Source: Rhizobacter sp.
GTDB taxonomy: Bacteria > Pseudomonadota > Gammaproteobacteria > Burkholderiales > Burkholderiaceae_C
Reading direction: 5' to 3'
Length of the DNA: 50,834 bases
Assembly: GCA_025361845.1 (NCBI GenBank)
Contig: JANYJL010000288.1
Span: 1-50,834, forward strand
How positions within the stretch are numbered: the stretch's first letter is position 1; every line of letters starts with the position of its first letter. The position numbers were made by a program, and so were the translations under genes. This document shows positions 5,943-21,693 of the stretch, piece after piece. Under the pieces are notes generated by a model, which was given only the letters and a program-made list of their open reading frames with translations, did no database searches and was not told the DNA's origin.

Positions 5943-6610
5943 AAGCGCGCCCCGGCGAAGGTGTAGCCCGCATTGCGCAGCGTGCGGATGCAGTCGAGCG
6001 GCTCCAGCTTCTTGCGCAACCGGCTGACCAGAATGTCGACCGCGCGGCTGTACAACTCGGCTTCGTGGCCGCGCAATCGGTTCAGGATCTCGTCGCGGCT
6101 GAACACCTTCTGCGGCTCGCGCGCCAGCAGCGTGAGCAGTTCGAATTCGGTGCCGGTGAGATCGAGCGCCTCGCCGTGGCGCAGCACCTCGCGCCGGTCG
6201 ATGTCGATCGACAAACCTTCGAACACCAGCCGGTTCGCGGCCGCCGGCGCGCGTGCGCGCCGCAGGATGGTCTGCAAGCGCGCCAGCAGTTCGCGCGGCT
6301 CGAAGGGTTTGGGCACGTAGTCGTCGGCACCGATCTCCAGGCCGACGACACGGTCCATCACCTCGCCGCGTGCGGTCAGCATGATGATCGGGATGTCGCT
6401 TTCCTTGCGGATCGTGCGGCAGAGTTCGAAGCCGTCCATCTCGGGCAGCATCACGTCGAGGATGGCCGCCTCGAACGGCTGCGCACGCAGCTTCGCGAGG
6501 CCCGCGCTCGGGCGCGTGGCGCTGTCGAGTTCGAAATCGAAACGCGCGAAGTAGGTCGCCAGCGGGGCGGCGAGCAGTTCGTCGTCGTCGATCAGCAGGA
6601 TGCGGCGCAT
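5939..6610 (-). CDS. OmpR-family response regulator, CpxR-like
   Basis: A 223-residue regulator with a receiver domain (acidic pocket DDD at 8-10, phosphorylation site Asp52 in AAILDVMLPEMDG, Thr in MLTARG, Lys in VPKPFEP) and a C-terminal winged helix (LTGTEFELLTLLAREP, SRDEILNRLRG, VDILVSRLRKKLEP, RNAGYTF). ATG 6610 (MRRILLIDDDE) is the natural family start; the frame is open far upstream but that sequence is not part of this protein. It is followed by the kinase gene with overlapping GTGA. It lies 71 bp downstream of the CpxP-like gene on the same strand, so the three probably form one regulatory unit. Confidence 0.93.
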   Translation of the reverse strand: MRRILLIDDDELLAAPLATYFARFDFELDSATRPSAGLAKLRAQPFEAAILDVMLPEMDGFELCRTIRKESDIPIIMLTARGEVMDRVVGLEIGADDYVPKPFEPRELLARLQTILRRARAPAAANRLVFEGLSIDIDRREVLRHGEALDLTGTEFELLTLLAREPQKVFSRDEILNRLRGHEAELYSRAVDILVSRLRKKLEPLDCIRTLRNAGYTFAGARL

Positions 6611-6681
6611 GCGGGGATTGTCGCTGTGACGAAGCGCAGAAAAAGCGGCCCGACGTTGGCGTGCAACGTGGGCCGCGCCGA

Positions 6682-7155
6682 TCAGCTGCGCCAGCCGTGG
6701 CCGCCGCGCTTGGCCATGAAGTCGCGCACCTTCTGCTGCTGCTCGGGCTTCAGGCTGTCGTAAAACTCGGCCGCCGCGGCGATGACTTCGGGGCTCTTGC
6801 CACGCAGGGCTTCGGTCTTGGCGGTGACGATGCCTTGCGCCTTGTCGCGGTCGAAGGTGGCGCCGGCCACCAGCGACTGGATCTCGGCACGCGGGTCGTT
6901 CGGGCCGGCCATCAGGGCCAGGCGCTGCTCGCGCAGCTTGTCGGCCAGGGCCGTGAGGCGCTGCTTCTGCGCGTCGTCGAGATTCAGTTCCTTGCCGACA
7001 CGTTCGACCATCTTGGTGCGGAACTTGGTGGCATCTTCCTCGGTCATCTGACCGTCGCGCATGCCGTAACGGCCGTGCGAGCAGGCGGCGAGACCGCCGA
7101 CGAGGACGGTGGCGCCGAAGAGGCCGATGAAAGTTCGTTTGAGCCAGGGACGCAT
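6682..7155 (-). CDS. Spy/CpxP-family periplasmic lipoprotein
   Basis: A 157-residue lipoprotein. The N-terminus MRPWLKRTFIGLFGATVL leads into a lipobox ending in Cys25 (LAAC). The mature part is helical with the Spy/CpxP layout: an LNLDDAQKQRLTALADKL stretch (the LTxxQ-type motif) and a second copy-like helix near the end (LKPEQQQKVRDFMAKRGGHG). Members are periplasmic chaperones or feedback inhibitors of the adjacent sensor kinase. ATG 7155 is preceded by AAAGGAAA, a good ribosome site. Position just upstream of the regulator and kinase genes supports a Cpx-like circuit in which this protein damps the sensor. Confidence 0.88.
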   Translation of the reverse strand: MRPWLKRTFIGLFGATVLVGGLAACSHGRYGMRDGQMTEEDATKFRTKMVERVGKELNLDDAQKQRLTALADKLREQRLALMAGPNDPRAEIQSLVAGATFDRDKAQGIVTAKTEALRGKSPEVIAAAAEFYDSLKPEQQQKVRDFMAKRGGHGWRS

Positions 7156-7340
7156 GGGATTTCCTTTCGTGGTGGATGGGGGCGGCTGTTGTTTCAGCAC
7201 AGGAGGAATCTTGATCGCCGCGCTCGATGGGGTCTTCTTTGCGGGGTATCGGCGTGTATCGTTTCTTTTCATCGCGGGGCGGTGGCAAGGAACTCGGGCT
7301 GCCAGTTACCCTCCAGCCCGTGAACAAGGAAACGACACCC
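7156..7340. promoter_or_regulatory. Divergent intergenic region cpxP-like / chaA
   Basis: 185 bp between the divergent starts of the CpxP-like gene and chaA. It must hold both promoters. It is less GC-rich near 7250-7275 (GTATCGTTTCTTTTCATCG). I see no convincing -35/-10 pair or binding palindrome. Confidence 0.4.
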
Positions 7341-8420
7341 ATGACCCAGACCCTGTGGCCCCGATGGACCCTCGTCGCGCCGCTGCTCGGCGCCGTCATC
7401 GCCGTTGCCTCGGTCTTCGTGCCCGGCCTGTGGTTCGCCGTGGTCATGGCCGCCGCCCTGATCGCGGGTGTGCTGGCCGCCGTGCACCACGCCGAGGTCG
7501 TCGCCCACCGTGTCGGCGAGCCTTACGGCACCCTGGTGCTGGCCATTGCCATCACGGTGATCGAACTCGCTCTGATCGTCTCGCTCATGATTTCCGGTGG
7601 TGCCGCCACGGCCGCGCTGGCGCGCGACACGGTGTTCGCGACCATCATGCTCATCCTCAACGGCATGGTCGGCCTGTGCCTGCTGGCAGGCGGCTCGCGC
7701 TTCGGCGAACAGCGCTTCGCGCAGTACGGCGTCAGCGCCTCGCTGGCCACACTCGCCACCATCGCCGTGCTCACCCTCGTGCTGCCGAACTACACGCTCA
7801 CCACGCCGGGGCCGATGTACAGCTCCAGCCAACTCGCCTTCGTGGCCGCCGTGTCGTTGGTGCTCTATGGCACCTTCGTGCTGGTGCAGACGGTGCGCCA
7901 CCGCGACTACTTCCTGCCGCCCGGCGCCGCCGCGGATGCCGAGGTGCACGCCGAAAAGCCCACGCTCAAGGTGGCATTGGGCAGCGGCGCACTGCTCATG
8001 GTGTGCTTGATCCTGGTGGTGGTGTTGGCGAAATCGCTCGCGCCGCTCGTGGAGAACGCGGTGGCCGCAGCCGGTGCGCCGCAGGCCCTGGTGGGCGTGA
8101 TCATCGCCGCGGTGGTGCTGCTGCCCGAAGGTTTGGCCGCCTTCCGTGCCGCGCGTGCCGACCGCTTGCAGACCAGCCTGAACCTGGCACTCGGCTCGGC
8201 GCTCGCGAGCATCGGCCTGACGATTCCCGCCGTGGCCGTCGTGTCGCTCGCCAGTGGCCTGACGCTCTCGCTCGGCATCGATGCCAAGTCGACCGTGCTG
8301 CTGATGCTGTCCCTGCTCGTCACCACCTTGTCGCTCGGCACCGGCCGCACCACGGTGCTGCAAGGCGTGGTGCACTTGGTGCTCTTGGCCGTCTACGTCT
8401 TCACGACCATCGTTCCCTAG
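7341..8420 (+). CDS. chaA: Calcium:proton antiporter ChaA
   Basis: A 359-residue inner-membrane cation/proton exchanger of the CaCA superfamily with about eleven hydrophobic helices. Two family signature regions are visible: HRVGEPYGTLVLAIAITVIELALI (about residues 56-79, with the acidic EPYG and the conserved Glu of helix 2) and the mirrored LLPEGLAAFRAARADRLQTS plus SLGTGRT in the second half. E. coli ChaA exports Ca2+ or Na+/K+ at alkaline pH. ATG 7341 is preceded by AAGGAAACG; an upstream GTG at 7320 is possible but unnecessary. The gene is monocistronic and ends just before a structured repeat element. Confidence 0.92.
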   Translation: MTQTLWPRWTLVAPLLGAVIAVASVFVPGLWFAVVMAAALIAGVLAAVHHAEVVAHRVGEPYGTLVLAIAITVIELALIVSLMISGGAATAALARDTVFATIMLILNGMVGLCLLAGGSRFGEQRFAQYGVSASLATLATIAVLTLVLPNYTLTTPGPMYSSSQLAFVAAVSLVLYGTFVLVQTVRHRDYFLPPGAAADAEVHAEKPTLKVALGSGALLMVCLILVVVLAKSLAPLVENAVAAAGAPQALVGVIIAAVVLLPEGLAAFRAARADRLQTSLNLALGSALASIGLTIPAVAVVSLASGLTLSLGIDAKSTVLLMLSLLVTTLSLGTGRTTVLQGVVHLVLLAVYVFTTIVP

Positions 8421-8427
8421 GAATGAC

Positions 8428-8482
8428 GGCCCCAAGACGCCTGCGGCGTCGCCCCCCGAGGGGATCTCAGGCGGCTTGGGGC
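8428..8482. repeat. Multi-stem hairpin element after chaA
   Basis: An outer stem (GGCCCCAAG at 8428-8436 pairing with CTTGGGGC at 8475-8482) encloses a perfect 6-bp hairpin (GACGCC/GGCGTC, 8436-8450) and a CCCC/GGGG hairpin (8452-8463). It lies between convergent genes and supplies the last codons of the minus-strand metallopeptidase gene. The form fits a bidirectional terminator or a dispersed REP-like element common in this bacterial group. Confidence 0.65.
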
Positions 8483-9000
8483 GGCCCGGCGCTCGCCTGA
8501 GTGCTGAGCAGCGTGAGGTACAGCCGCGCATCGAACTCGATCTGGTGATACCCAGGCAGCATGTGCTCGCACAGCGCGTAGAAGGGTTTGTTGTGCTCAC
8601 GCTCCTTCAGGTGCGCGAGTTCGTGCACGACGATCATGTCGAGCATCGCGGCGGGTGCGTCCTTGAAGACCGCCGCCACGCGGATCTCGCGCTTGGCCTT
8701 CAACTGCCCGCCTTGCACACGTGACACCGCGGTCAACGTGCCGAGCGCACGCTGATCGATCTGCAAGCGGTTGTCGTAGACCACCTTGGCCAGCAGCGGC
8801 GCGTTGCGCAGGTAGCGCTGCTTCAGCGCCATCGCATGCGCATACAGCGCCGCATCGTTGCGCACCGTGTGCACCTCGGGGTAGCGGCGCGCCAGGTGCG
8901 CGGCCAGGCGGCCTTCGGCCAGCGCCGCGCGCACATCGTCACGCACGGCCTCGGGGTAGCCGGTGATGAAGGGCAGGTCGGGCGCCGGCAGGCTGGCCAC
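8467..9000 (-). CDS. YgjP-like zinc metallopeptidase (DUF45)
   Basis: A 177-residue protein with the YgjP/WLM-type zinc motif HELAHLKEREHNKPF (HELAH at residues 126-130, third ligand His a few residues on). The central part (KVVYDNRLQIDQRALGTL...) is the usual beta-rich lead-in of the DUF45 family. YgjP-like proteins are cytoplasmic predicted peptidases with little known physiology. The start is uncertain: GTG 9000 is used, but TTG 9006 would overlap the stop of the upstream gene (TTGA). The last eight residues (SAGPPQAA) are encoded by the hairpin element, which suggests the element has replaced or extended the original C-terminus. Confidence 0.85.
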   Translation of the reverse strand: MASLPAPDLPFITGYPEAVRDDVRAALAEGRLAAHLARRYPEVHTVRNDAALYAHAMALKQRYLRNAPLLAKVVYDNRLQIDQRALGTLTAVSRVQGGQLKAKREIRVAAVFKDAPAAMLDMIVVHELAHLKEREHNKPFYALCEHMLPGYHQIEFDARLYLTLLSTQASAGPPQAA

Positions 9001-12485: not shown

Positions 12486-13550
12486 TCAGCTCACCACCAG
12501 CCGCGGTGTGGCGCTGCGGTCCGCCACGCTGCCGACGACCGCAGCCTGCGCGAAGCCGTGGCGCCGGAAGATCGCCAGCACCTCGTCGACCGCACTCGGC
12601 GCGCAGGCCACCAGCAGACCACCACTGGTTTGCGGGTCGGTGAGCAGGGCTTTGTCGATGGAGGCGAACGAGGCGGGCAAGGCAATGTCGGCGCCGTAGC
12701 CGGCCCAGTTGCGCTCCGACGCGCCGGTCACGAAGCCGCGTTCCGCCAGCGCGCGCACGCCGGGCAGCAGCGGCACGCCAGCCCAATCGAGCCGAATCTC
12801 GCAGCGGGCGCCGCGCGCCATTTCCAGCGTGTGGCCGGCGAGGCCGAAGCCGGTGACATCGGTCAGGGCATGCACGCCGGGCAGGGCCGCGAGGTCCGGC
12901 CCCGGTGTGTTCAGCTTCGTCGTGGTGGCGATCATCTGCGCGTAGCCGGCGTCGCCCAACTCGCCCTTCTTCAGCGCGGCCGACATCACGCCCACGCCGA
13001 CCGGTTTGCCGAGCACCAGCACATCCCCGGGCTGCGCATCGGCATTGCGCTTCACTTGTTTCGGGTGCACGAGGCCGAGCGCCACCAGGCCGTAGATGGC
13101 TTCCACCGAATCGATCGTGTGGCCGCCGGCGATCGGGATGCCTGCCGTGCGGCACACCGACGCACCGCCTTCGAGGATGCGGCCGATCGTCTGCGTCGAC
13201 AGCACATTGATCGGCATGCCCACCAGGGCCAGCGCCAGGATCGGGCGGCCGCCCATCGCGTACACATCGCTGATCGCATTCGTCGCGGCAATGCGGCCGA
13301 AGTCGTGCGGGTCATCGACGATGGGCATGAAGAAGTCGGTGGTGGCGATCAGCGCCTGCTCGTCGTTGAGCTGGTAGACGGCCGCGTCGTCGGCGGTCTC
13401 GATGCCGACCAGCAGCTCCTTCGGAATCGGCATCGCGGCCGTGCCCCTGAGGATCTCGGACAACACGCCCGGCGCGATCTTGCAGCCGCAGCCACCGCCG
13501 TGCGAGAGCGAGGTCAGGCGGGGTTCGGCGGGCTTTTCAGGGGCGTTCAT
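12486..13550 (-). CDS. selD: Selenide, water dikinase SelD (SenC of the selenoneine cluster)
   Basis: A 354-residue cytoplasmic enzyme that makes selenophosphate from selenide and ATP. The active-site loop HGGGCGCK is at residues 17-24, with Cys21 and Lys24 matching Cys17 and Lys20 of E. coli SelD; this is a Cys form, not a selenocysteine form. Other family blocks are ATTDFFMPIVDDP, IAATNAISDVYAMGG, ALTDVTGFGLAGH and DPQTSGGLLVA. It lies 20 bp downstream of senB and is evidently co-transcribed. In sen clusters the SelD homologue is called SenC and feeds selenophosphate to SenB. It could also supply selenouridine or Sec synthesis if those genes exist elsewhere. Confidence 0.93.
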   Translation of the reverse strand: MNAPEKPAEPRLTSLSHGGGCGCKIAPGVLSEILRGTAAMPIPKELLVGIETADDAAVYQLNDEQALIATTDFFMPIVDDPHDFGRIAATNAISDVYAMGGRPILALALVGMPINVLSTQTIGRILEGGASVCRTAGIPIAGGHTIDSVEAIYGLVALGLVHPKQVKRNADAQPGDVLVLGKPVGVGVMSAALKKGELGDAGYAQMIATTTKLNTPGPDLAALPGVHALTDVTGFGLAGHTLEMARGARCEIRLDWAGVPLLPGVRALAERGFVTGASERNWAGYGADIALPASFASIDKALLTDPQTSGGLLVACAPSAVDEVLAIFRRHGFAQAAVVGSVADRSATPRLVVS

Positions 13551-13570
13551 GGAAGGGTTCCTCTCGGGGT

Positions 13571-14539
13571 TCACGGTAACGCGCGGGCCATCAGTTCGGC
13601 CACCACGTGTTTCAGTGTGGCGCTCTCCGCCTCGGGCGAAAAGAGCGGCGCACGCAGCGCGAGTTGCCGCTGCATGGCGGGCAGCATATCGGGATCGTCG
13701 CGCGCACCTGCCAGCAGGGTCGCCAGCGCCTCGTCGTCGCCCGCCGCGAACGTGCCGCGGTAGTCGGCCCCCAGCACGCCGAGGTTGCCGGCGATGTGCG
13801 AGGCCAGCACTGGCGTGCCGCTGCGCATCGCTTCGATGATCACCTGCGCGCCGCCTTCCATGCGACTCGGGTGCACCAGCACATGCGCGGCCTGGATGCG
13901 GGCTCGCGTGGCCGCGTGGGGCAGGGCGCCGAGCCAGCGGTAGTTCGGCTGCGCCGCGGCGAGCGCGCTTGCTTCGGCGCCGAGCGCGGGTTCGAGCGCG
14001 CTGCCGATGTGATCGAGCAGGATGTCGCTGCGGCCGGCCAGCCGCCGCGCCGCGCAAAAGAACGCGCGCGGGTCTTTCTCGTCGCGCAGGTGGCCGACCA
14101 TCAGCGCACGCAAATGGCGTGGTGTCTTGTGCAGCGCGCGCCGCGCGGGGCAAGACTGCAAGACCACATGGCACTTTGGTCGCAGCGTTGCCGGCAGCCG
14201 CTGCGCGCCGAGTTCGTTCAGCACGATCAACGCATCGGCTGACACCAGCGACTGCTGCGCGGCCGCGTCGTTGTCGATGTCGCGGTACAGGTCGGTGCCG
14301 GTGAGGGCGAGCAGCAGCGGGCGCTGTGGGTGCGCGGCGCGCCAGGCCGCCATCGATGGTGCCGAGCGGCGCGCGTGCAGCGCGATCATCAGCGCCTCGT
14401 CGCCGCCGGCCCACTGCGCCGTCAAACGGACGCGGTAAGCTGATTGCAGCATCTGCGCCCAGCGGCGCGCGGTTTGCCAGTTGCCGTTGTTGGCCTCCGC
14501 CAGCGCTGGCGTCACGATGACGATGGATCCACGATGCAC
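13571..14539 (-). CDS. senB: Selenosugar synthase SenB (glycosyltransferase fold)
   Basis: A 322-residue GT-B type glycosyltransferase-like protein. The N-terminus reads IVIVTPALAEANNGNWQTARRWAQML, as in SenB proteins. The C-terminal half has LVHPSRMEGGAQVIIEAMRSGTPVLASHIAGN, the nucleotide-sugar site with a conserved Glu. SenB uses selenophosphate and UDP-N-acetylglucosamine to form a selenosugar. GTG 14539 is chosen because the family begins a few residues before the first beta strand; no ATG is available. This start overlaps the divergent senA start by six bases. selD follows 20 bp downstream on the same strand, giving a senB-selD operon. Confidence 0.88.
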   Translation of the reverse strand: MHRGSIVIVTPALAEANNGNWQTARRWAQMLQSAYRVRLTAQWAGGDEALMIALHARRSAPSMAAWRAAHPQRPLLLALTGTDLYRDIDNDAAAQQSLVSADALIVLNELGAQRLPATLRPKCHVVLQSCPARRALHKTPRHLRALMVGHLRDEKDPRAFFCAARRLAGRSDILLDHIGSALEPALGAEASALAAAQPNYRWLGALPHAATRARIQAAHVLVHPSRMEGGAQVIIEAMRSGTPVLASHIAGNLGVLGADYRGTFAAGDDEALATLLAGARDDPDMLPAMQRQLALRAPLFSPEAESATLKHVVAELMARALP

Positions 14540-15697
14540 GATGCGAGCGTAACGCCTGCGGCCACGGCCGCCCGCCAGGGGGATGCCCGCGTTTTGATGC
14601 AGGCCTTGCAAGCCAGCCGCCGCGACACGCTGGCGACCTTCGCTGTGATCGAGCAGGCCTTGCCCGGCCTGAAGGTCCCGCAGCGCAGCGACCTGAACCC
14701 ACCGATCTGGGAGCTGGGGCACATCGGCTGGTTCCAGGACTACTGGTTGGCGCGTTACCCGCAGCGCCAACAAGGCCATGCAGCGGACCCGGAGGCGCTG
14801 CGTTTGCCACCGCGCCGGCCCGACGCGGATGCGCTGTACGACTCCAGCCACGTGCCGCACGCCACCCGCTGGGCCTTGCCCTTGCCCGATGCCGATGGCA
14901 CACGCGCCGATCTGAGCCAGCAACTGGCCGACACGCTGGCGCTGCTGCAAGACGCGAGCGATGACGATGCGGCGCTGTACTTCTTCCGCCTCGCCCTGCT
15001 GCACGAAGACATGCACCACGAGGCCGCGCTGTACATGGCGCAATCGCTCGGCATCGCCATCGACGATGCGCGCTGGCAGGCCGCCCCCTTGCCGGCGCCG
15101 CCGCCACCGATCGAGCTGCCGGCCGGCCCGTGGACACTCGGCAGCGCGACCGATGCCGGCTTCGTTTTCGATAACGAACTCTGCGCCCACGAAGTCGCGT
15201 TGGCCGCGACGGTCATCGACGCGCAGGCCGTGCGCTGGGCCGAGTACCTGCCCTTCGTCGAAAGCGGTGCGCATGCCGACCCGCGCTATCTGCGCCGCGA
15301 GGGCGCGGCCTGGCAGCAATGGCGCCACGGCCGTTGGCACGTGCTGAACCTGGCCGAAGCCGCGTGCCATCTCACATTTCACGAGGCCGAGGCCTGGTGC
15401 CGCTGGGCCGGCCGCCGCCTGCCGGGCGAGGCCGAGTGGGAGCGCGCCGCGCTGAGCCGGCCCGCCGACTTCCGCTGGGGTGACGTGTGGGAGTGGACGG
15501 CCAGCCCCTTCCAGCCCTTCCCCGGTTTCGAGCCGCACCCCTACCGCGACTATTCAGCGCCATGGTTCGATGGCCGGCCGGTGCTGCGCGGCGCTTCCCA
15601 CATGACCCAGCCCCGCATGCGCCATCCGCGCTACCGCAACTTCTTTCCGCCGCAGCGCAGCGATGTGCCGGCGGGCTTTCGGAGTTGCGCGATCTGA
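14534..15697 (+). CDS. senA: Selenoneine synthase SenA (EgtB-like non-heme iron enzyme)
   Basis: A 387-residue EgtB-like enzyme joining selenosugar to hercynine. The N-terminal DinB-like domain carries the iron ligands: His63 in LGHIGWFQDYW and the pair His157/His161 in LLHEDMHHEA. The C-terminal formylglycine-generating-enzyme-like domain has CRWAGRRLPGEAEWERAA, DVWEWTASPF and RGASHMTQPRMRHPRYRNFF. It is assigned to SenA and not EgtB because it is embedded with senB and selD. ATG 14534 is used; its ribosome site is weak, and the start overlaps the start of divergent senB, so each gene's promoter must lie within the other. It converges on egtD with a 19-bp gap. Confidence 0.88.
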   Translation: MHDASVTPAATAARQGDARVLMQALQASRRDTLATFAVIEQALPGLKVPQRSDLNPPIWELGHIGWFQDYWLARYPQRQQGHAADPEALRLPPRRPDADALYDSSHVPHATRWALPLPDADGTRADLSQQLADTLALLQDASDDDAALYFFRLALLHEDMHHEAALYMAQSLGIAIDDARWQAAPLPAPPPPIELPAGPWTLGSATDAGFVFDNELCAHEVALAATVIDAQAVRWAEYLPFVESGAHADPRYLRREGAAWQQWRHGRWHVLNLAEAACHLTFHEAEAWCRWAGRRLPGEAEWERAALSRPADFRWGDVWEWTASPFQPFPGFEPHPYRDYSAPWFDGRPVLRGASHMTQPRMRHPRYRNFFPPQRSDVPAGFRSCAI

Positions 15698-15716
15698 CGA
15701 AGGCTCGGCGGCAGCT

Positions 15717-16679
15717 TCAACCGGTGGCCAGGAACACCGCGAACCAGCCCTGCGGATCGGTCCAGCGCCGCACCGCGCCGAAGCCCGCGGCGCGCAGCAA
15801 GGCCTCGAAAGCCTCCGGCGCCCACTTGGCCGAGTTCTCGGTGTGGATGCGTTCGCCCGCCGCGAAGTGCCGCTCACCCGTGGGCCAGCGCACCGTGATG
15901 GCATGGCGTGCTTCGAGGTGCATCTCGATGCGCGAATCGGCGGCGTTGAAGAGGGCCACATGGCGCCAGTCGCGCACGCGGAAGTCGGCACCCAGCAGGC
16001 GGTTCAGGTGGCTCAGCAGGTTGAGGTTGAAGGCCGCGGTGACCCCGAGTTCATCGTCGTAGGCGGCCTGCAGCAGGGCCGCAGGCTTGAGCAGGTCGAC
16101 ACCGATCAGCAGCGCACCGCCCGCGGCCGTGGCCCGTGCTTCGCGAACCAGGCGCAAGGCGTCGTCGGGCGAAAAATTGCCGATCGACGAACCGGGGTAG
16201 AACACGAGGGCCGGGCTGTCCGCGAGCGATGGTGGCAAGTGCAGACGTGCCGAAAAATCCAGCCCGACCCCGACCATCTCCATCGCCGTGTGCTCACGCT
16301 GCAAGGCCAGCAGCGACTCGCGCAGGAACGCCACCGAGATGTCCACCGCCACATAGCGCCGCGGCGCGAGCAGGCCGAACAGGCGCGCCGCCTTGGCGCA
16401 GTTGCCCGCACCCAGGTCCACCAGCACCGGTGCCGCGCCGGTGGCGGCGAGTGCCGCGTCGGCAATGGCCGCGCCATGGGCCTGGAAGATCGCCGCTTCG
16501 GTGCGTGTCGGGTAGTACTCGGGCAGCTCGGTGATGGCGTCGAACAGCCGCGAACCCAGCGGGTCGTAGAAGAACTTCGGCGAGACATGCGCGCGTGGCG
16601 CCAGGAGCCCGGCCGCGGCTTCATCGGCCAGCACGCGGTCGTCGATCTGGTGTTGCTGGATGAAGGTCGGTGTGGGCAT
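15717..16679 (-). CDS. egtD: L-histidine N-alpha-methyltransferase EgtD
   Basis: A 320-residue S-adenosylmethionine-dependent enzyme that trimethylates histidine to hercynine, the acceptor for SenA (or EgtB). Visible motifs are KFFYDPLGSRLFDAITELPEYYPTRTE near the N-terminus, the SAM loop VLVDLGAGNCAKA, YPGSSIGNFSP, and the C-terminal WFAVF. ATG 16679 is assumed; an in-frame ATG at 16703 would add eight residues (MPSLTHAP). It is transcribed away from the ABC importer genes, with a perfect palindrome between them. Together with senA, senB and selD it completes the selenoneine route in one locus. Confidence 0.93.
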   Translation of the reverse strand: MPTPTFIQQHQIDDRVLADEAAAGLLAPRAHVSPKFFYDPLGSRLFDAITELPEYYPTRTEAAIFQAHGAAIADAALAATGAAPVLVDLGAGNCAKAARLFGLLAPRRYVAVDISVAFLRESLLALQREHTAMEMVGVGLDFSARLHLPPSLADSPALVFYPGSSIGNFSPDDALRLVREARATAAGGALLIGVDLLKPAALLQAAYDDELGVTAAFNLNLLSHLNRLLGADFRVRDWRHVALFNAADSRIEMHLEARHAITVRWPTGERHFAAGERIHTENSAKWAPEAFEALLRAAGFGAVRRWTDPQGWFAVFLATG

Positions 16680-16731
16680 CGGCGCGTGTGTCAGTGAGGG
16701 CATCGTTGAGCAGGCGCTATGCCTTTCAACC

Positions 16732-16760
16732 GACTCTAGCAGCGCAAGGCAGCTAGAGTC
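16732..16760. promoter_or_regulatory. Perfect palindrome between egtD and the ABC importer
   Basis: GACTCTAGC (16732-16740) and GCTAGAGTC (16752-16760) are perfect 9-bp inverted arms separated by 11 bp. The site lies in the 107-bp gap between divergent egtD and the PhnC-like gene, 53 bp from one start and 26 bp from the other. Two CTAG tetramers, rare in bacterial DNA, lie within it. An operator shared by both transcripts is the likeliest reading; a hairpin in the leader is the alternative. Confidence 0.6.
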
Positions 16761-16786
16761 CGGCATCTGCACAACCGGGCTCCGCA

Positions 16787-17623
16787 GTGAAACTCGAACT
16801 TCGCGCGCTGTCTGCGCGACACCCTGCGGCCCGGCCGGGTGCCGCGCCCGCACTGCACCCGCTCGACCTGGAGATTGCCGAGGGCGAGCAGGTCGCCGTG
16901 ATCGGCGCCTCGGGTGCCGGCAAGACCAGCCTGCTGCAAGTGATGGCGCTGGCGATGAAGCCGGCCGCCGGTGCGCTGCGCCTCGATGGCCATGACCCGT
17001 GGGCTCTGCCGCGCCGTGCGTTGCAGCGTCTGCGTGGCCGCTTGTTTCTAGCGCCCCAGGTGCCGCCGCTGCCACCGCGCCAGCGTGTGGTCACGGCCGT
17101 GCTGGCCGGCCGCCTGCCCGCGATGGGCTTCTGGGCCAGCCTGCGCTCGCTGTTCCACCCCAGTGATTTACCGGCTGCGCACGACGCGCTGGCATGTTTC
17201 GATCTCGCAGACAAGTTGTTCGAGCGGACGGATCGTCTGTCGGGCGGTGAACGCCAGCGTGTCGGCCTCGCGCGGGCGCTGCTGGCCCCGGCGCGGCTGT
17301 GGCTGGTGGACGAGCCGCTCTCGGCGCTCGACCCGACCCGCTCCCGGCAGGCGCTGGAAACTCTGGTGCAGATGGCGCGCCAGCGCGGCATCACGCTCGT
17401 GGCCACCCTGCACCAGGTGGACATGGCGCTGGCACATTTCCCGCGCATCGTCGGCCTGCGTGAAGGCCAGCTGGTGTTCGACCTGCCGACGGCGGAAGTG
17501 ACGCGTGAGCGCCTCGAACGTTTGTACGCGCAGCATGAAGACGAGCTGGATGGCGGCGCTGCGCCTCGCTCGCCCGAAGCCGCGCCGGCCGCGGTGCTGC
17601 CGGTGGTGGTTCATTGCCGTTGA
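16787..17623 (+). CDS. phnC: PhnC-like ABC importer ATPase
   Basis: A 278-residue ATP-binding subunit. Walker A GASGAGKTS is at residues 40-48, Q-loop LAPQVPPL, signature LSGGERQRVGLARALL, Walker B LWLVDEPLSALDP and the H-loop TLHQVD. It is closest to PhnC, the phosphonate/phosphate-analogue importer ATPase, given the two PhnE-type permeases behind it. The C-terminal 25 residues are a Pro/Ala extension. No substrate-binding PhnD gene or C-P lyase gene is nearby, and the gene is divergent from the selenoneine cluster, so the transported ion may be a selenium oxyanion; that is inference. Permease gene 1 starts two bases after the stop. Confidence 0.85.
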   Translation: MKLELRALSARHPAARPGAAPALHPLDLEIAEGEQVAVIGASGAGKTSLLQVMALAMKPAAGALRLDGHDPWALPRRALQRLRGRLFLAPQVPPLPPRQRVVTAVLAGRLPAMGFWASLRSLFHPSDLPAAHDALACFDLADKLFERTDRLSGGERQRVGLARALLAPARLWLVDEPLSALDPTRSRQALETLVQMARQRGITLVATLHQVDMALAHFPRIVGLREGQLVFDLPTAEVTRERLERLYAQHEDELDGGAAPRSPEAAPAAVLPVVVHCR

Positions 17624-17625
17624 AC

Positions 17626-18486
17626 ATGGCGGCGTCGGTCGAGACCTCGCGTGCGCACACGCGCACGCATCCCGCGCCGAGCTGCGATCCAGCCTGGCTC
17701 GGCCGCCTGGCCTGGCTCGCCGCGGCGGTGGTTCTTTTGTGGCCGCTGGCGGTGGCCACCGAGTTCAAACCCTGGGCGCTGTTCGATGCGCGCAGCCTGC
17801 ATGTCACCGGCCAGTTCCTGCGCAGCTTCTGGCCGCCGGCGCATGCGCCCGACTTTCTGATCATGGTCGCGCACGAGGCCTGGCGCACCGTGGCCATCGC
17901 CACCGCGGGGCTCACGCTCGGCTTGCTGCTGGCGGTGCCGGCGACCCTGGTGTCCACGCATGCGCTGTCGGTCTCGGCCTTGTCAGGGCGCATGGCGCGC
18001 GGGCCGTTCTGGCTGCGCCAGGCGGTGCGCTGCGGGCTCATCGTGCTGCGCAGCGTGCCCGAGCTGGTGTGGGCGCTGGTGTTCGTGCGCGTGGTCGGCC
18101 TCGGGCCGACGGCCGGCGTGCTGGCCATCGCACTCACCTACGGCGGTATGTTGGGCAAGGTCTATGGCGAGATCCTGGAGAGTGGCGATCTGCATGCCAC
18201 CGAGACCCTGCTGCGCAACGGCAGTTCGCGGTTGCAAGCCTTCTTCTTCGGTCTGCTGCCGCAGAACGCGGCCGAGCTGACGAGCTACACCGTCTACCGC
18301 TGGGAATGTGCGATCCGCAGTTCGGTGGTGCTGGGTTTCGTCGGCGCCGGCGGCCTGGGGCAACTGCTCGACGGCTCGATGAAGATGTTCAGCGGCGGCG
18401 AGGTGATGACGGTGCTCGCCGTGTTCGTGCTGCTGGTGGCGCTGGCCGATCGTGTGAGCGCCGCGCTGCGCGGGAGCCTCGGGTGA
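17626..18486 (+). CDS. phnE: PhnE-like ABC importer permease 1
   Basis: A 286-residue inner-membrane permease with about six helices. The PhnE-type hallmark region is RSVPELVWALVFVRVVGLGPTAGVLAIALTYGGMLGKVYGEILES, with the EAA-type coupling loop covering GEILES...GSSRLQAFFFGLLPQ. VLGFVGAGGLGQLL is the conserved C-terminal block. ATG 17626 is preferred to the TTG at 17614 that would overlap the ATPase gene. It is followed after four bases by a second, related permease gene; the two probably form a heterodimeric channel. Confidence 0.86.
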   Translation: MAASVETSRAHTRTHPAPSCDPAWLGRLAWLAAAVVLLWPLAVATEFKPWALFDARSLHVTGQFLRSFWPPAHAPDFLIMVAHEAWRTVAIATAGLTLGLLLAVPATLVSTHALSVSALSGRMARGPFWLRQAVRCGLIVLRSVPELVWALVFVRVVGLGPTAGVLAIALTYGGMLGKVYGEILESGDLHATETLLRNGSSRLQAFFFGLLPQNAAELTSYTVYRWECAIRSSVVLGFVGAGGLGQLLDGSMKMFSGGEVMTVLAVFVLLVALADRVSAALRGSLG

Positions 18487-18490
18487 GCGC

Positions 18491-19267
18491 ATGAAGCAGT
18501 CGATCTCGAGCCGCGGGTTCGTGGCGGCCTTGCTGGTGCTGATCGGCGCCAGCTTCTGGACGCTCGATCTGCAATGGGCGCAGTTCCTCTCGCTCGACGC
18601 CTTGCGCAGCATGGGCCGATTTGCCGGCGAATTCTTCCCGCCCGACACCTCGCCCGCCTTCCTTGCCCGTGTGGCCGTCGGCACCTGGGAGACGCTCGCC
18701 ATGTCCACGCTCGGCACGCTGCTGGCAGCGGCCGCCGGTGTTCTGCTCGCGCTGCCCGCCAGCCGCATGTTCGAGGGCGATGCCGCGCGCCTGCGAATCC
18801 CCACCCGCTGGCTGCTCAACGTGCTGCGCTCGGTGCCCGAGCTGGTGTGGGCGGCTTTGCTGCTCATCGCGGCCGGCCTCGGGCCGTTTGCCGGCACGCT
18901 GGCCCTGGCCGCGCACACCGCGGGTGTGCTCGGCCGCTTGTTTGCCGAAGCCATCGAGAACGCTCCGCCGGGGCCGGGCGCTGCGCTGCGTGCGCAAGGA
19001 GTGGGCAAGACCCGCGTGTTCCTCTACGCCACGCTGCCCCAGGTGCTGCCGCAACTGCTGAGCTACACGCTCTACCGTTGGGAAAACAACATCCGCGCCG
19101 CCGCCGTTCTGGGTGTCGTCGGCGCGGGTGGTCTAGGCCAGTTGCTGGCCTTCCACATGGGTCTGTTTCACATGGGCAAGACGGCGAGCATTCTTGGCGC
19201 GATGCTCTTGTTGGTGGGTGCGGTGGATGCGCTGAGTTACGGTGCGCGCAGGGTGATGACGCGGTAG
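18491..19267 (+). CDS. phnE: PhnE-like ABC importer permease 2
   Basis: A 258-residue permease related to its neighbour: it shares RSVPELVW, the gap to GVLGRLFAEAIEN, YTLYRWENNIRAAAVLGVVGAGGLGQLL and the membrane topology. The N-terminus is shorter and enters the first helix within ten residues. PhnE permeases occur as tandem pairs in some phosphonate-type importers. The operon ends here: the next gene is on the other strand, 11 bp on, so no binding protein is encoded downstream. A PhnD-like protein must come from elsewhere or be absent. Confidence 0.86.
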   Translation: MKQSISSRGFVAALLVLIGASFWTLDLQWAQFLSLDALRSMGRFAGEFFPPDTSPAFLARVAVGTWETLAMSTLGTLLAAAAGVLLALPASRMFEGDAARLRIPTRWLLNVLRSVPELVWAALLLIAAGLGPFAGTLALAAHTAGVLGRLFAEAIENAPPGPGAALRAQGVGKTRVFLYATLPQVLPQLLSYTLYRWENNIRAAAVLGVVGAGGLGQLLAFHMGLFHMGKTASILGAMLLLVGAVDALSYGARRVMTR

Positions 19268-19278
19268 GGGGCTACGCG

Positions 19279-20211
19279 TCAGTGCGGACCCATGAAGCGG
19301 TCGCCGTTGAAGTGAATCAGGTGGGTCGGGTTATCGGCGCACCAGACCTCCGTTTCCCAGGCGATGTCGGCAAGAAAACGGGCCATGAGTTGGCGGCTCG
19401 GGAATGCCGTCACGAATACCAGGCCCGCCTGGGCCTTGCCGAAGAGATGGGTGAGTTCGGCATGGCGTTTGCCATCGACAGGGCCGACCGATGTCACGCT
19501 CTCGACCAGGTAGAGCCAGCCTTTGTCTTCGCGGTAGAGCACGGCGTCCGGCATCTTGCCGCGCTCATGCGCGTGGACGCCGAGTTGTTCAAGTTGTTCT
19601 TTGTCGTGCACCACACCCTTGTTTCCGGTGTCGCCGAGGTACAGCACCTTCGCGCCCGGGGCGAAGCGAGGGGCGAACTCCTGGACGATGTCGCGGATGA
19701 GTTCGCTGTGCACTCCGGGGGACATGGCCACAACGAAGCCGTCGGGCAAACGGCAGGGGACCAAATTGAAGTCGCGCTCCGCTTTGTACCTTTCCGCCAG
19801 CGAGCCGGCCTTGGCAAGGTAAGTCTCAAGCGCCTTCTTCCACGCCGGAGTGCCATAGGTCATCAACAGCGCGTGGGCCTCCGGGGCAATCTGGTAGCAC
19901 CACTTCGGCGAGTTCGGCGCGCGCGTGGGCTGGTCGGGGTTCTGGAGCGCCAAGCCACCATCGACGAACTGGTGCAGCGTCTCCTTCCGGAAACTCTCGC
20001 GCGAGTTCTCCGCATACGGCCTTTTGTAGTCGTTGCGGCAGAAATCGAGGATGGCGCGCACCCCCAACATCGGCTGCTGGAGGCGTTGCCACGAACCGTT
20101 CTTGCGAAGCTGAACCAGCGCCAGAAGGCACAAAGCCGAACGCTCATTGTGTTGAGCCCTGGGAAAGCCCAAGGCCGCAATGATGCCGATGGCCTCGTCG
20201 ATCTTGCCCAC
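19279..20211 (-). CDS. Type II restriction endonuclease, BsuBI/PstI family
   Basis: A 310-residue endonuclease of the BsuBI/PstI family, which cuts CTGCAG. The N-terminal half is helical and winged-helix-like; the C-terminal catalytic domain contains YLGDTGNKGVVHD, the acidic cluster in MPDAVLYRED and YLVESVTSVGPVDGKRH, with the Asp/Glu residues expected for metal binding. Length is near that of PstI (326). The GTG start at 20211 directly follows the stop of the methyltransferase gene, so expression is coupled and the methylase is made first. Base composition is visibly less GC-rich than in neighbours, consistent with horizontal transfer. Specificity is inferred from the family. Confidence 0.88.
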   Translation of the reverse strand: MGKIDEAIGIIAALGFPRAQHNERSALCLLALVQLRKNGSWQRLQQPMLGVRAILDFCRNDYKRPYAENSRESFRKETLHQFVDGGLALQNPDQPTRAPNSPKWCYQIAPEAHALLMTYGTPAWKKALETYLAKAGSLAERYKAERDFNLVPCRLPDGFVVAMSPGVHSELIRDIVQEFAPRFAPGAKVLYLGDTGNKGVVHDKEQLEQLGVHAHERGKMPDAVLYREDKGWLYLVESVTSVGPVDGKRHAELTHLFGKAQAGLVFVTAFPSRQLMARFLADIAWETEVWCADNPTHLIHFNGDRFMGPH

Positions 20212-21693
20212 TCAAACTCCTCCCACGATTTGGTCGATTTCTTCCTGGTTCGGCAGGCGGTTGCCGACGGTCCTTCCCCAGGTGTGCAGCGTCTCGATGT
20301 CGGGGTACCGGAGGGCGCGCATGTCCCCGGCATTCACTTGGGTGTGGCCGCTGAATCGGCGCAGCCAGCGATCGGCAAAGCTCGATCCGAGGTAGAGCGC
20401 CATGCCTTTCGCCACCTCTGCCGGCAAGCCATTCTTGAAGGCGTGGACGATGTTGGTCTTGTTGTCAAAGCCGATCAGATCGCCGTGGGCCGCCTCAGGC
20501 GTGAAGACCGCGGGGACGATGCGCCGCTTCTCCTCCTTCGACGAGAGGCGACGGACGACCACGTAGCAGCCGGCGGGCATCATCCACTTGCGTGTTTCTT
20601 CGTTGATCTCGATGTAGTCGGGCTTCTTTGCTTCCGGCTTCGGGTGCTTGACGAAGCCGTGCTCGAAGTGATGCGAATACACCATCGGCGCCCGGCCTGG
20701 CCCGGGCTCCGTGCGCAAGTGCTCGCGCATGCGGAAATCCACCACCGGGCCTGTGCTGACGCCCAAGCCGATGCCATCGAGCGTATGGCAGTAGCGGGCC
20801 GTAGCCCGGGTCGTCGCATCGGTAGCCTCCGAGGTTGCCAGGTGAAATATCTTCTCGCGGTCACCGGGCAACACGATCTCGTTGAACGGGGTCTCGCGGG
20901 TCGATACAGCTGAAAAGGTGGAGTCCTCGCTGCTGGAGACGGCGACCTGCCCCTGCTTCGCGCCCTTCACCAAATGGAAGATGACGTTCTCCTGGAGCAC
21001 CTCGTCGCCTTTGAAAGCCTGCGTGCGCGATTCAAAGACGTGGATCTTCATGAGGGCCGATCTCGCGAGGATCAACTCGCGGAACGGTCGGAAGTAGGGG
21101 CCATTGCAGAAACTGCGCGGTGTGATGGCGACGAGTTCACCGCCGTCGTCCAACGACAGCAGGGCCAGCGCAACGAAGGCCGAATACAGATTCGCCGTCT
21201 CGACGCCACAGCCCCGCAGGGCATGTCGGTGCGCCGATTCAGAGCTGATCTTCTTGTAGGGCGGGTTGAGGATCGCGTGCGTCGGAGCCGCCATCTTGTC
21301 GTGCGCGAACAGGTCGGCGAAGGCCAGGATGAAGTCTTCTGATTGGATCGAGCTTCGAAATGCGCCGCCCGAACCCGCCATGAGTGCCCCGCAAGCTGCG
21401 AGCGTCGCCCGCAAGGGTTCGTGCATCTTGGTGTCGATCTCCCAGGCTTCGCATTGCAGCGAGGCCGCGCTCTCGCTGGCTGCACGCTCGGCGAAGGCTG
21501 CGGTGAGTGAGCCGATGCCGGCGCCTGCGTCGAGCAGTCGTATCGACTTCTCAGCCAAAGGGGCAAACATCCCGGCCATGAAGCGCGCGATGACGCTCGG
21601 GGTCATGAACTGACCCAATGCCGACTTGTGCTTGGCGGGGGTAGCGAGGGCTATCGCTTCGCGGCGGTCGTCGATGGTTTGAATGTCGAACAT
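20212..21693 (-). CDS. Type II adenine-N6 DNA methyltransferase, PstI-like
   Basis: A 493-residue gamma-type N6-adenine methyltransferase. Motif X region is ALGQFMTPSVIARFMAGMF (residues 25-43), motif I LLDAGAGIGSLTAAF (53-67), and the catalytic motif IV is NPPY at 143-146. The C-terminal third should hold the target-recognition domain. M.PstI and M.BsuBI have about 500 residues and protect CTGCAG. The restriction gene follows without a gap. The lower GC content and the position between unrelated genes suggest an acquired cassette. It is divergent from the HU-like gene across 118 bp containing ATGCATTATCAG, an AT-rich stretch that could hold its promoter. Confidence 0.9.
   Translation of the reverse strand: MFDIQTIDDRREAIALATPAKHKSALGQFMTPSVIARFMAGMFAPLAEKSIRLLDAGAGIGSLTAAFAERAASESAASLQCEAWEIDTKMHEPLRATLAACGALMAGSGGAFRSSIQSEDFILAFADLFAHDKMAAPTHAILNPPYKKISSESAHRHALRGCGVETANLYSAFVALALLSLDDGGELVAITPRSFCNGPYFRPFRELILARSALMKIHVFESRTQAFKGDEVLQENVIFHLVKGAKQGQVAVSSSEDSTFSAVSTRETPFNEIVLPGDREKIFHLATSEATDATTRATARYCHTLDGIGLGVSTGPVVDFRMREHLRTEPGPGRAPMVYSHHFEHGFVKHPKPEAKKPDYIEINEETRKWMMPAGCYVVVRRLSSKEEKRRIVPAVFTPEAAHGDLIGFDNKTNIVHAFKNGLPAEVAKGMALYLGSSFADRWLRRFSGHTQVNAGDMRALRYPDIETLHTWGRTVGNRLPNQEEIDQIVGGV

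Follow-up and report, generated by a model that had tools for sequence, protein, structure and literature searches.

A predicted selenoneine biosynthesis locus with on-site egtD and a neighbouring ABC importer in a Burkholderiales bacterium

Selenoneine gene set and proposed pathway

Positions 12,486–16,679 of the window, the 50,834-nucleotide stretch of DNA that was analysed, which is the whole of contig C220 of its assembly, very probably constitute a chromosomal selenoneine biosynthesis locus whose genes are real and correctly named. The host of the locus is a Burkholderiales bacterium, many relatives of which have the same arrangement, and its assembly has 399 contigs totalling 4.5 Mb, with a completeness of 90.65% and a contamination of 2.28%. 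The locus is filled by four genes, selD (− strand), senB (−), senA (+) and egtD (−), and the product of each scored above its curated NCBIfam cut-off in the profile search, with the smallest margin for SenA. The best-match E-values of the four proteins range from 1.9e-105 to 3.4e-161, and therefore chance is excluded for the four gene assignments. The initial annotation had located SelD, SenB, an EgtB-like SenA and EgtD within 4.2 kb, and all of them were found there. The four genes appear to form a compact, self-contained selenoneine gene set. Our high confidence in the selenoneine reading is based on the model scores, the nearest solved chains, the residues of SenB, the histidines of SenA, the tree position, the conserved locus order and the published pathway. 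A sen locus with egtD is an already known type, and egtD is included here as in many relatives; the importer linked to it and the layout of the putative promoter are leads of more interest. Three observations extend beyond the initial annotation: an ABC importer next door, a second SenA-family gene, and overlapping starts of senA and senB.

The selD gene (12,486–13,550, − strand) encodes a predicted selenophosphate synthase in the role of SenC (NF002098, 536 bits, cut-off 299; TIGR00476, 421 bits). Its nearest solved chain is 3u0o, a selenide, water dikinase, and the active-site cysteine that had been claimed for it is Cys21 of the motif GGGCGCK, which also contains Lys24. The senB gene (13,571–14,539, − strand), with a GTG start, encodes a putative selenosugar synthase (TIGR04348, 426 bits, cut-off 300), and its nearest solved chains, 8k5u, 8jjq and 8fbx, are selenosugar synthases. 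Residues N20, T23, K158 and E231 of the Variovorax enzyme are important according to the mutagenesis described in the available text of PMC10891094. The residues aligned to them, N20, T23, K155 and E228, are all kept, so the claim of a SenB-type glycosyltransferase stands. One motif of SenB counts against the selenoneine reading: it is EGGAQV here versus the published EGGAHV, and the other 17 alignment rows have H or N at this position. The senA gene (14,534–15,697, + strand) encodes a predicted selenoneine synthase (NF041186, 462 bits, cut-off 420) whose nearest solved chains are the selenoneine synthases 8ryz and 8k5i. The margin of only 42 bits over the cut-off weighs against the reading. 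His78, His172 and His176 (tree-alignment numbering) are kept and are invariant in 82 of 82 SenB-linked SenA proteins; we take them to correspond to the iron ligands known from EgtB structures. The egtD gene (15,717–16,679, − strand) encodes a predicted histidine N-alpha-trimethyltransferase (TIGR03438, 352 bits, cut-off 290.9), has the EgtD structures 7scf and 4pim as nearest solved chains, and is the one egtD match in the genome.

What was observed directly is which families the proteins belong to, which residues are conserved and how the genes are placed; each catalytic step and the transporter substrate are predicted from the named families. EgtD would trimethylate histidine to hercynine, and SelD would use selenide and ATP to form selenophosphate. 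SenB would move the selenium onto a UDP-sugar to give a selenosugar, which SenA, an iron enzyme, would join with hercynine into a selenoxide that decays to selenoneine. Selenium oxyanion would, somewhat more probably than any other substrate, be taken up by the PhnC/PhnE/PhnE importer together with a binding protein encoded on contig C93. The steps from histidine and selenide to selenoneine are those described in the available portions of PMC10702425, PMC10903977 and PMC10891094, and in PMC9814287. This known biochemistry upholds the claim that the four-gene set would be sufficient to make selenoneine from histidine and selenide. Since the profile search found a single SelD, one selenouridine synthase and no SelB over the cut-offs in the genome, this SelD is probably used for selenouridine as well as for selenoneine.

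Distribution of the locus and supply of hercynine

An alignment search of named genomes with SenB, in one scan, gave at least 571 relatives, the best 80 of which were kept; among the matches listed, the nearest loci belong to Rubrivivax, Roseateles and other Burkholderiales. By tblastn, 65 of the 80 loci have SelD (five of them only a relative of 30–34% identity), 60 have a SenA labelled as such and 38 have EgtD, where contig ends fall inside the locus in many cases. The divergent SelD relative (30–34% identity) lies downstream of senB, replaces the usual SelD, and is possibly a different SenC; it is encoded at L102 2,860–3,840, L127 4,397–5,377, L130 12,219–13,199, L133 12,304–12,783, L136 12,216–12,656 and L149 11,525–12,505.

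In a 399-genome sample of the order, 116 genomes have SenB over the cut-off, three of 119 senB genomes having been excluded as falling below it. Among the matches listed, at least 25 of the 116 genomes have egtD no more than 12 kb from senB, and 61 have it farther away or on another contig, a count that takes in other contigs of fragmented assemblies. The search at E 1e-60 gave no egtD in 17 genomes, and its position lies outside the matches listed in 13, since positions covered 149 of the 182 egtD-bearing genomes. From the 38 of 80 loci and the at least 25 of 116 genomes, egtD on site is a recurrent variant that is not peculiar to the window genome. The initial annotation was thus right about the presence of egtD at the locus, but this is not special, being common in the order.

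As had been noted for the locus, the scan of nine genes from 11.2 to 20.2 kb showed neither egtB nor egtC, and the genome-wide search extends this to the assembly, which has no match to either over the cut-offs. With E values up to 1, the EgtB model matched the window SenA, the SenA-like protein of contig C252 (263 bits) and a protein of contig C28 (40 bits), all below the cut-off, and the best EgtC match reached 51 bits against a cut-off of 218.65. The organism may make only the selenium form. A real alternative is that the missing egtB reflects an assembly gap, because each of the other four senB genomes of the family in the sample (G049, G264, G294 and G323) has EgtB over the cut-off; the completeness of only 90.65% also favours a gap. 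The EgtB search covered 80 of the 116 genomes with senB: the 25 in which egtD is close to senB and the 55 that follow in SenB score. EgtB is over the cut-off in 23 of the 80 and not in 57. Among the 25, it is over the cut-off in ten and not in 15, the window genome included. These 15 genomes prompt the question of whether hercynine is produced solely for use with selenium in some bacteria. Other arrangements occur in the set: in L124, a true EgtB (6,523–8,793, 538 bits) is encoded directly before egtD and next to senA, in what appears to be a joint ergothioneine and selenoneine locus, and in L136 an EgtB-clade protein (7,521–8,768) is encoded beside senA.

ABC importer genes next to the locus

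Downstream of the locus, the + strand encodes a phnC-type ABC ATPase (16,787–17,623; TIGR02315, 192 bits, below the cut-off of 266), a first phnE-type permease (17,614–18,486; TIGR01097, 188 bits, below the cut-off of 217) and a second one (18,491–19,267; 248 bits, above the same cut-off). The island order in many relatives is egtD, binding protein, phnC-type ATPase and two phnE-type permeases. Cultured relatives that combine the importer with sen genes include Rubrivivax rivuli and Roseateles saccharophilus. The window has a 107-bp gap between egtD and phnC (16,680–16,786), where many relatives have a TIGR04553 binding-protein gene. The genome's own copy of this gene (L055) lies on contig C93 (9,707–10,516; 397 bits, cut-off 250), adjoins cytochrome bd genes, and is parted from the transporter genes. 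This placement on separate contigs speaks against the selenoneine reading, whereas in many relatives the binding protein is encoded beside the ATPase and permeases. Family member G264, which has the same selD-senB-senA-egtD layout, gave no TIGR04553 match at E 1e-60. The restriction-modification stretch at 19,279–21,693, which starts 12 bp after the second phnE, encodes a BsuBI/PstI-type restriction endonuclease and, in the next same-strand gene, probably its methyltransferase; its G+C content is 0.626 versus 0.680 for the window.

We consider it somewhat more probable than otherwise that the importer beside the sen genes imports a selenium oxyanion. PhnC orthologues (at least 65% identity) are present in 39 of the 80 best SenB loci, with conserved order, and the binding protein is likewise present in 39, in one of which (L127) it is only 30% alike. 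In the genome sample, 13 genomes have the binding-protein gene no more than 12 kb from senB, and 12 have it no more than 5 kb from egtD. We aligned the genome's own binding protein with 39 others, which share 63–77% identity with it and include one from outside the 80 loci (L149). The TIGR04553 model is named "putative selenate ABC transporter substrate-binding protein" and is of the hypothetical-equivalog type, and the nearest solved relatives of the binding protein by sequence are annotated as phosphonate or phosphite binders. Moreover, a TIGR04553 protein (E up to 1e-60) occurs in 94 genomes, and in 44 of these no SenB passes the cut-off. These points favour an importer of another oxyanion (phosphite, phosphonate or phosphate), whose linkage to the sen genes would be accidental or have a different cause; we regard this as unlikely in view of the conserved order beside the sen genes and the proximity to senB and egtD. 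If import of a selenium oxyanion is correct, the genes would encode a bacterial importer that is dedicated to selenium and linked with a selenometabolite. No description of an importer beside sen genes was found in the literature looked at, including the available parts of PMC13188914 and PMC9312934.

The separate location of the binding-protein gene may also be explained by C93 being a contaminant contig, in an assembly with 2.28% contamination; the tetranucleotide distance to the window is 0.133 for C93, equal to that of C355, and 0.098 for C252. We rejected plain assembly collapse as the cause of the missing binding protein, as positions 16,501–17,000 have only short matches to C93 (the best of 19 bases, E 0.003), and the near-identical loci L065 (Roseateles puraquae) and L066 have phnC-phnE-phnE beside senA without a binding protein.

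Overlapping gene starts and a putative leaderless senB

The starts of senA (14,534, + strand) and senB (14,539, − strand) lie head-to-head and share 6 bp. An identical overlap occurs in 15 of 86 loci, among them L043/L138, one locus fetched twice, and L065/L066; the set of 86 still has copies (L138 of L043, L151 of L025, L117 matching L032, and L065 near L066). Six bases before the GTG of senB, inside codons 5–6 of senA, is the sequence TACGCT (14,546–14,551, − strand), a TANNNT element with a putative promoter role. Start sites were compared after hits below 40% identity and copies of a locus had been removed, together with loci that lacked a candidate start codon or had fewer than 45 upstream bases; the start codons were picked by rule and some are wrong. 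A TANNNT element at a spacing of exactly 6 precedes senB in 36 of 103 loci, leaving 67 without it, and each other spacing from 3 to 12 accounts for zero to four loci. When the 20 bases upstream of senB were shuffled 200 times, the element appeared at spacing 6 in one locus on average and in four at most. The spacing-6 element is found before senA in 3 of 73 loci, selD in 0 of 65, egtD in 2 of 40, the binding-protein gene in 0 of 27, and phnC in 1 of 40. Shine-Dalgarno-like sequences are present upstream of senB in 5 of 103 loci, selD in 41 of 65, senA in 25 of 73, and egtD in 7 of 40. The spacing is the same in 16 loci with overlapping senA and senB and in 12 loci with more than 10 bases between the two genes, and therefore coding constraint on senA alone is insufficient to account for it. 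The signature of leaderless genes, a TANNNT element about six bases before the start and no Shine-Dalgarno sequence, is present in the window senB as TACGCT-N6-GTG, which suggests that the senB mRNA is leaderless.

We see an even chance that Sphaerotilaceae and related Burkholderiales make selenoneine from one selenium island that combines a dedicated high-affinity PhnD/PhnC/PhnE/PhnE-type importer of selenium oxyanions with SelD, SenB, SenA and EgtD, and with a leaderless senB mRNA whose promoter, in the window genome and its close kin, would be embedded in the opening codons of senA on the opposite strand.

SenA and its paralogue

The second SenA-family gene of the genome (L054) is located on contig C252 (8,250–9,476), between a DUF1289 gene and leuCDB, and there is no senB on this 19.7-kb contig. 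Its product scored 501 bits with NF041186, above the 462 bits of the window SenA, and a paralogue that outscores the window protein with the SenA model was counted against the selenoneine reading. Among 12 sampled family genomes, the C252-type protein is present in four of the five with senB; in the seven that lack senB, no SenA match passes the cut-off. We calculated a quick SenA tree with a midpoint root, for which proteins shorter than 300 or longer than 520 residues and identical copies were dropped (110 to 101 rows). The C252 protein and its relatives in three family members (L139, L140 and L141) form a clade with 100% SH-aLRT support, which is located among SenB-linked lineages as sister to a mostly SenB-linked SenA clade (63 of 65 rows). 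Residues that are invariant in the 82 SenB-linked SenA proteins are changed in the C252 clade, and two of its four members (L139 and L140) have arginine for an iron-ligand histidine, which the genome's own protein keeps as histidine. The C252 protein may have another role, and the SenA model does not tell the C252 type apart.

The window SenA lacks about 19 loop residues that are present in solved SenA, a further point against the selenoneine reading. However, the loop between the same anchors, of about 64 residues in most SenB-linked SenA proteins, has at most 50 residues in 15 of the other 81, and we therefore rejected damage as its explanation. The higher model score of the C252 protein could be taken to mean that it is the working selenoneine synthase and that the window SenA, which lacks the loop, is in decay. 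This is very unlikely, as the C252 clade is unlinked to senB and has altered invariant residues, in two members including the iron-ligand histidine, whereas the window SenA keeps the invariant residues, has an intact frame, and shares its short loop with the 15 other proteins.

That senA is truly an EgtB and the locus makes ergothioneine was rejected as extremely improbable: SenA and EgtB are homologous and the EgtB model TIGR03440 still gives the window SenA 187 bits, but this is below its cut-off of 360 and far behind the 462 bits of the SenA model, four true EgtBs of relatives score 503–561 bits with the EgtB model and 326–362 with the SenA model, the EgtB clade (8 rows) is split from the rest of the tree with 100% SH-aLRT support while the window SenA is nested within the clade of SenB-linked SenA proteins, and senB and selD are alongside. 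The comparison of the two models had been named beforehand as a possible refutation of the SenA assignment, which it leaves standing.

Comparison with known systems

The sen cluster of Variovorax paradoxus DSM 30034 was reportedly described by Kayrouz et al. in 2022. The locus in the window resembles this cluster (senA, senB and senC), as presented in PMC9814287 and in the accessible parts of PMC10891094 and PMC10702425, in having SenA, SenB and SelD/SenC together, and the pathway is alike by family. Unlike the cluster as it appears in those parts of the later papers, the window has an adjacent egtD, convergent with senA, and importer genes beyond it. The sen islands of Rubrivivax, Roseateles, Leptothrix and Hydrogenophaga are alike in order and orientation, with SenB identities of 59–75% in the named examples, and the selD-senB-senA-egtD layout of family member G264 is identical. 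The window differs from those islands in that no binding-protein gene lies between egtD and phnC, being on another contig, and in the BsuBI/PstI-type restriction-modification pair after phnE. The locus shares with ergothioneine egtB-egtD loci an EgtD and an EgtB-fold enzyme; however, this enzyme is a SenA by model score and tree, and the assembly has no EgtB over the cut-off. The importer is similar by sequence to the PhnCDE and PtxABC phosphonate/phosphite importers in its ABC family and binding-protein family. It is unlike them in that the ATPase and the first permease score below the phosphonate equivalog cut-offs, whereas the binding protein scores above that of TIGR04553, and in the linkage to sen genes in relatives.
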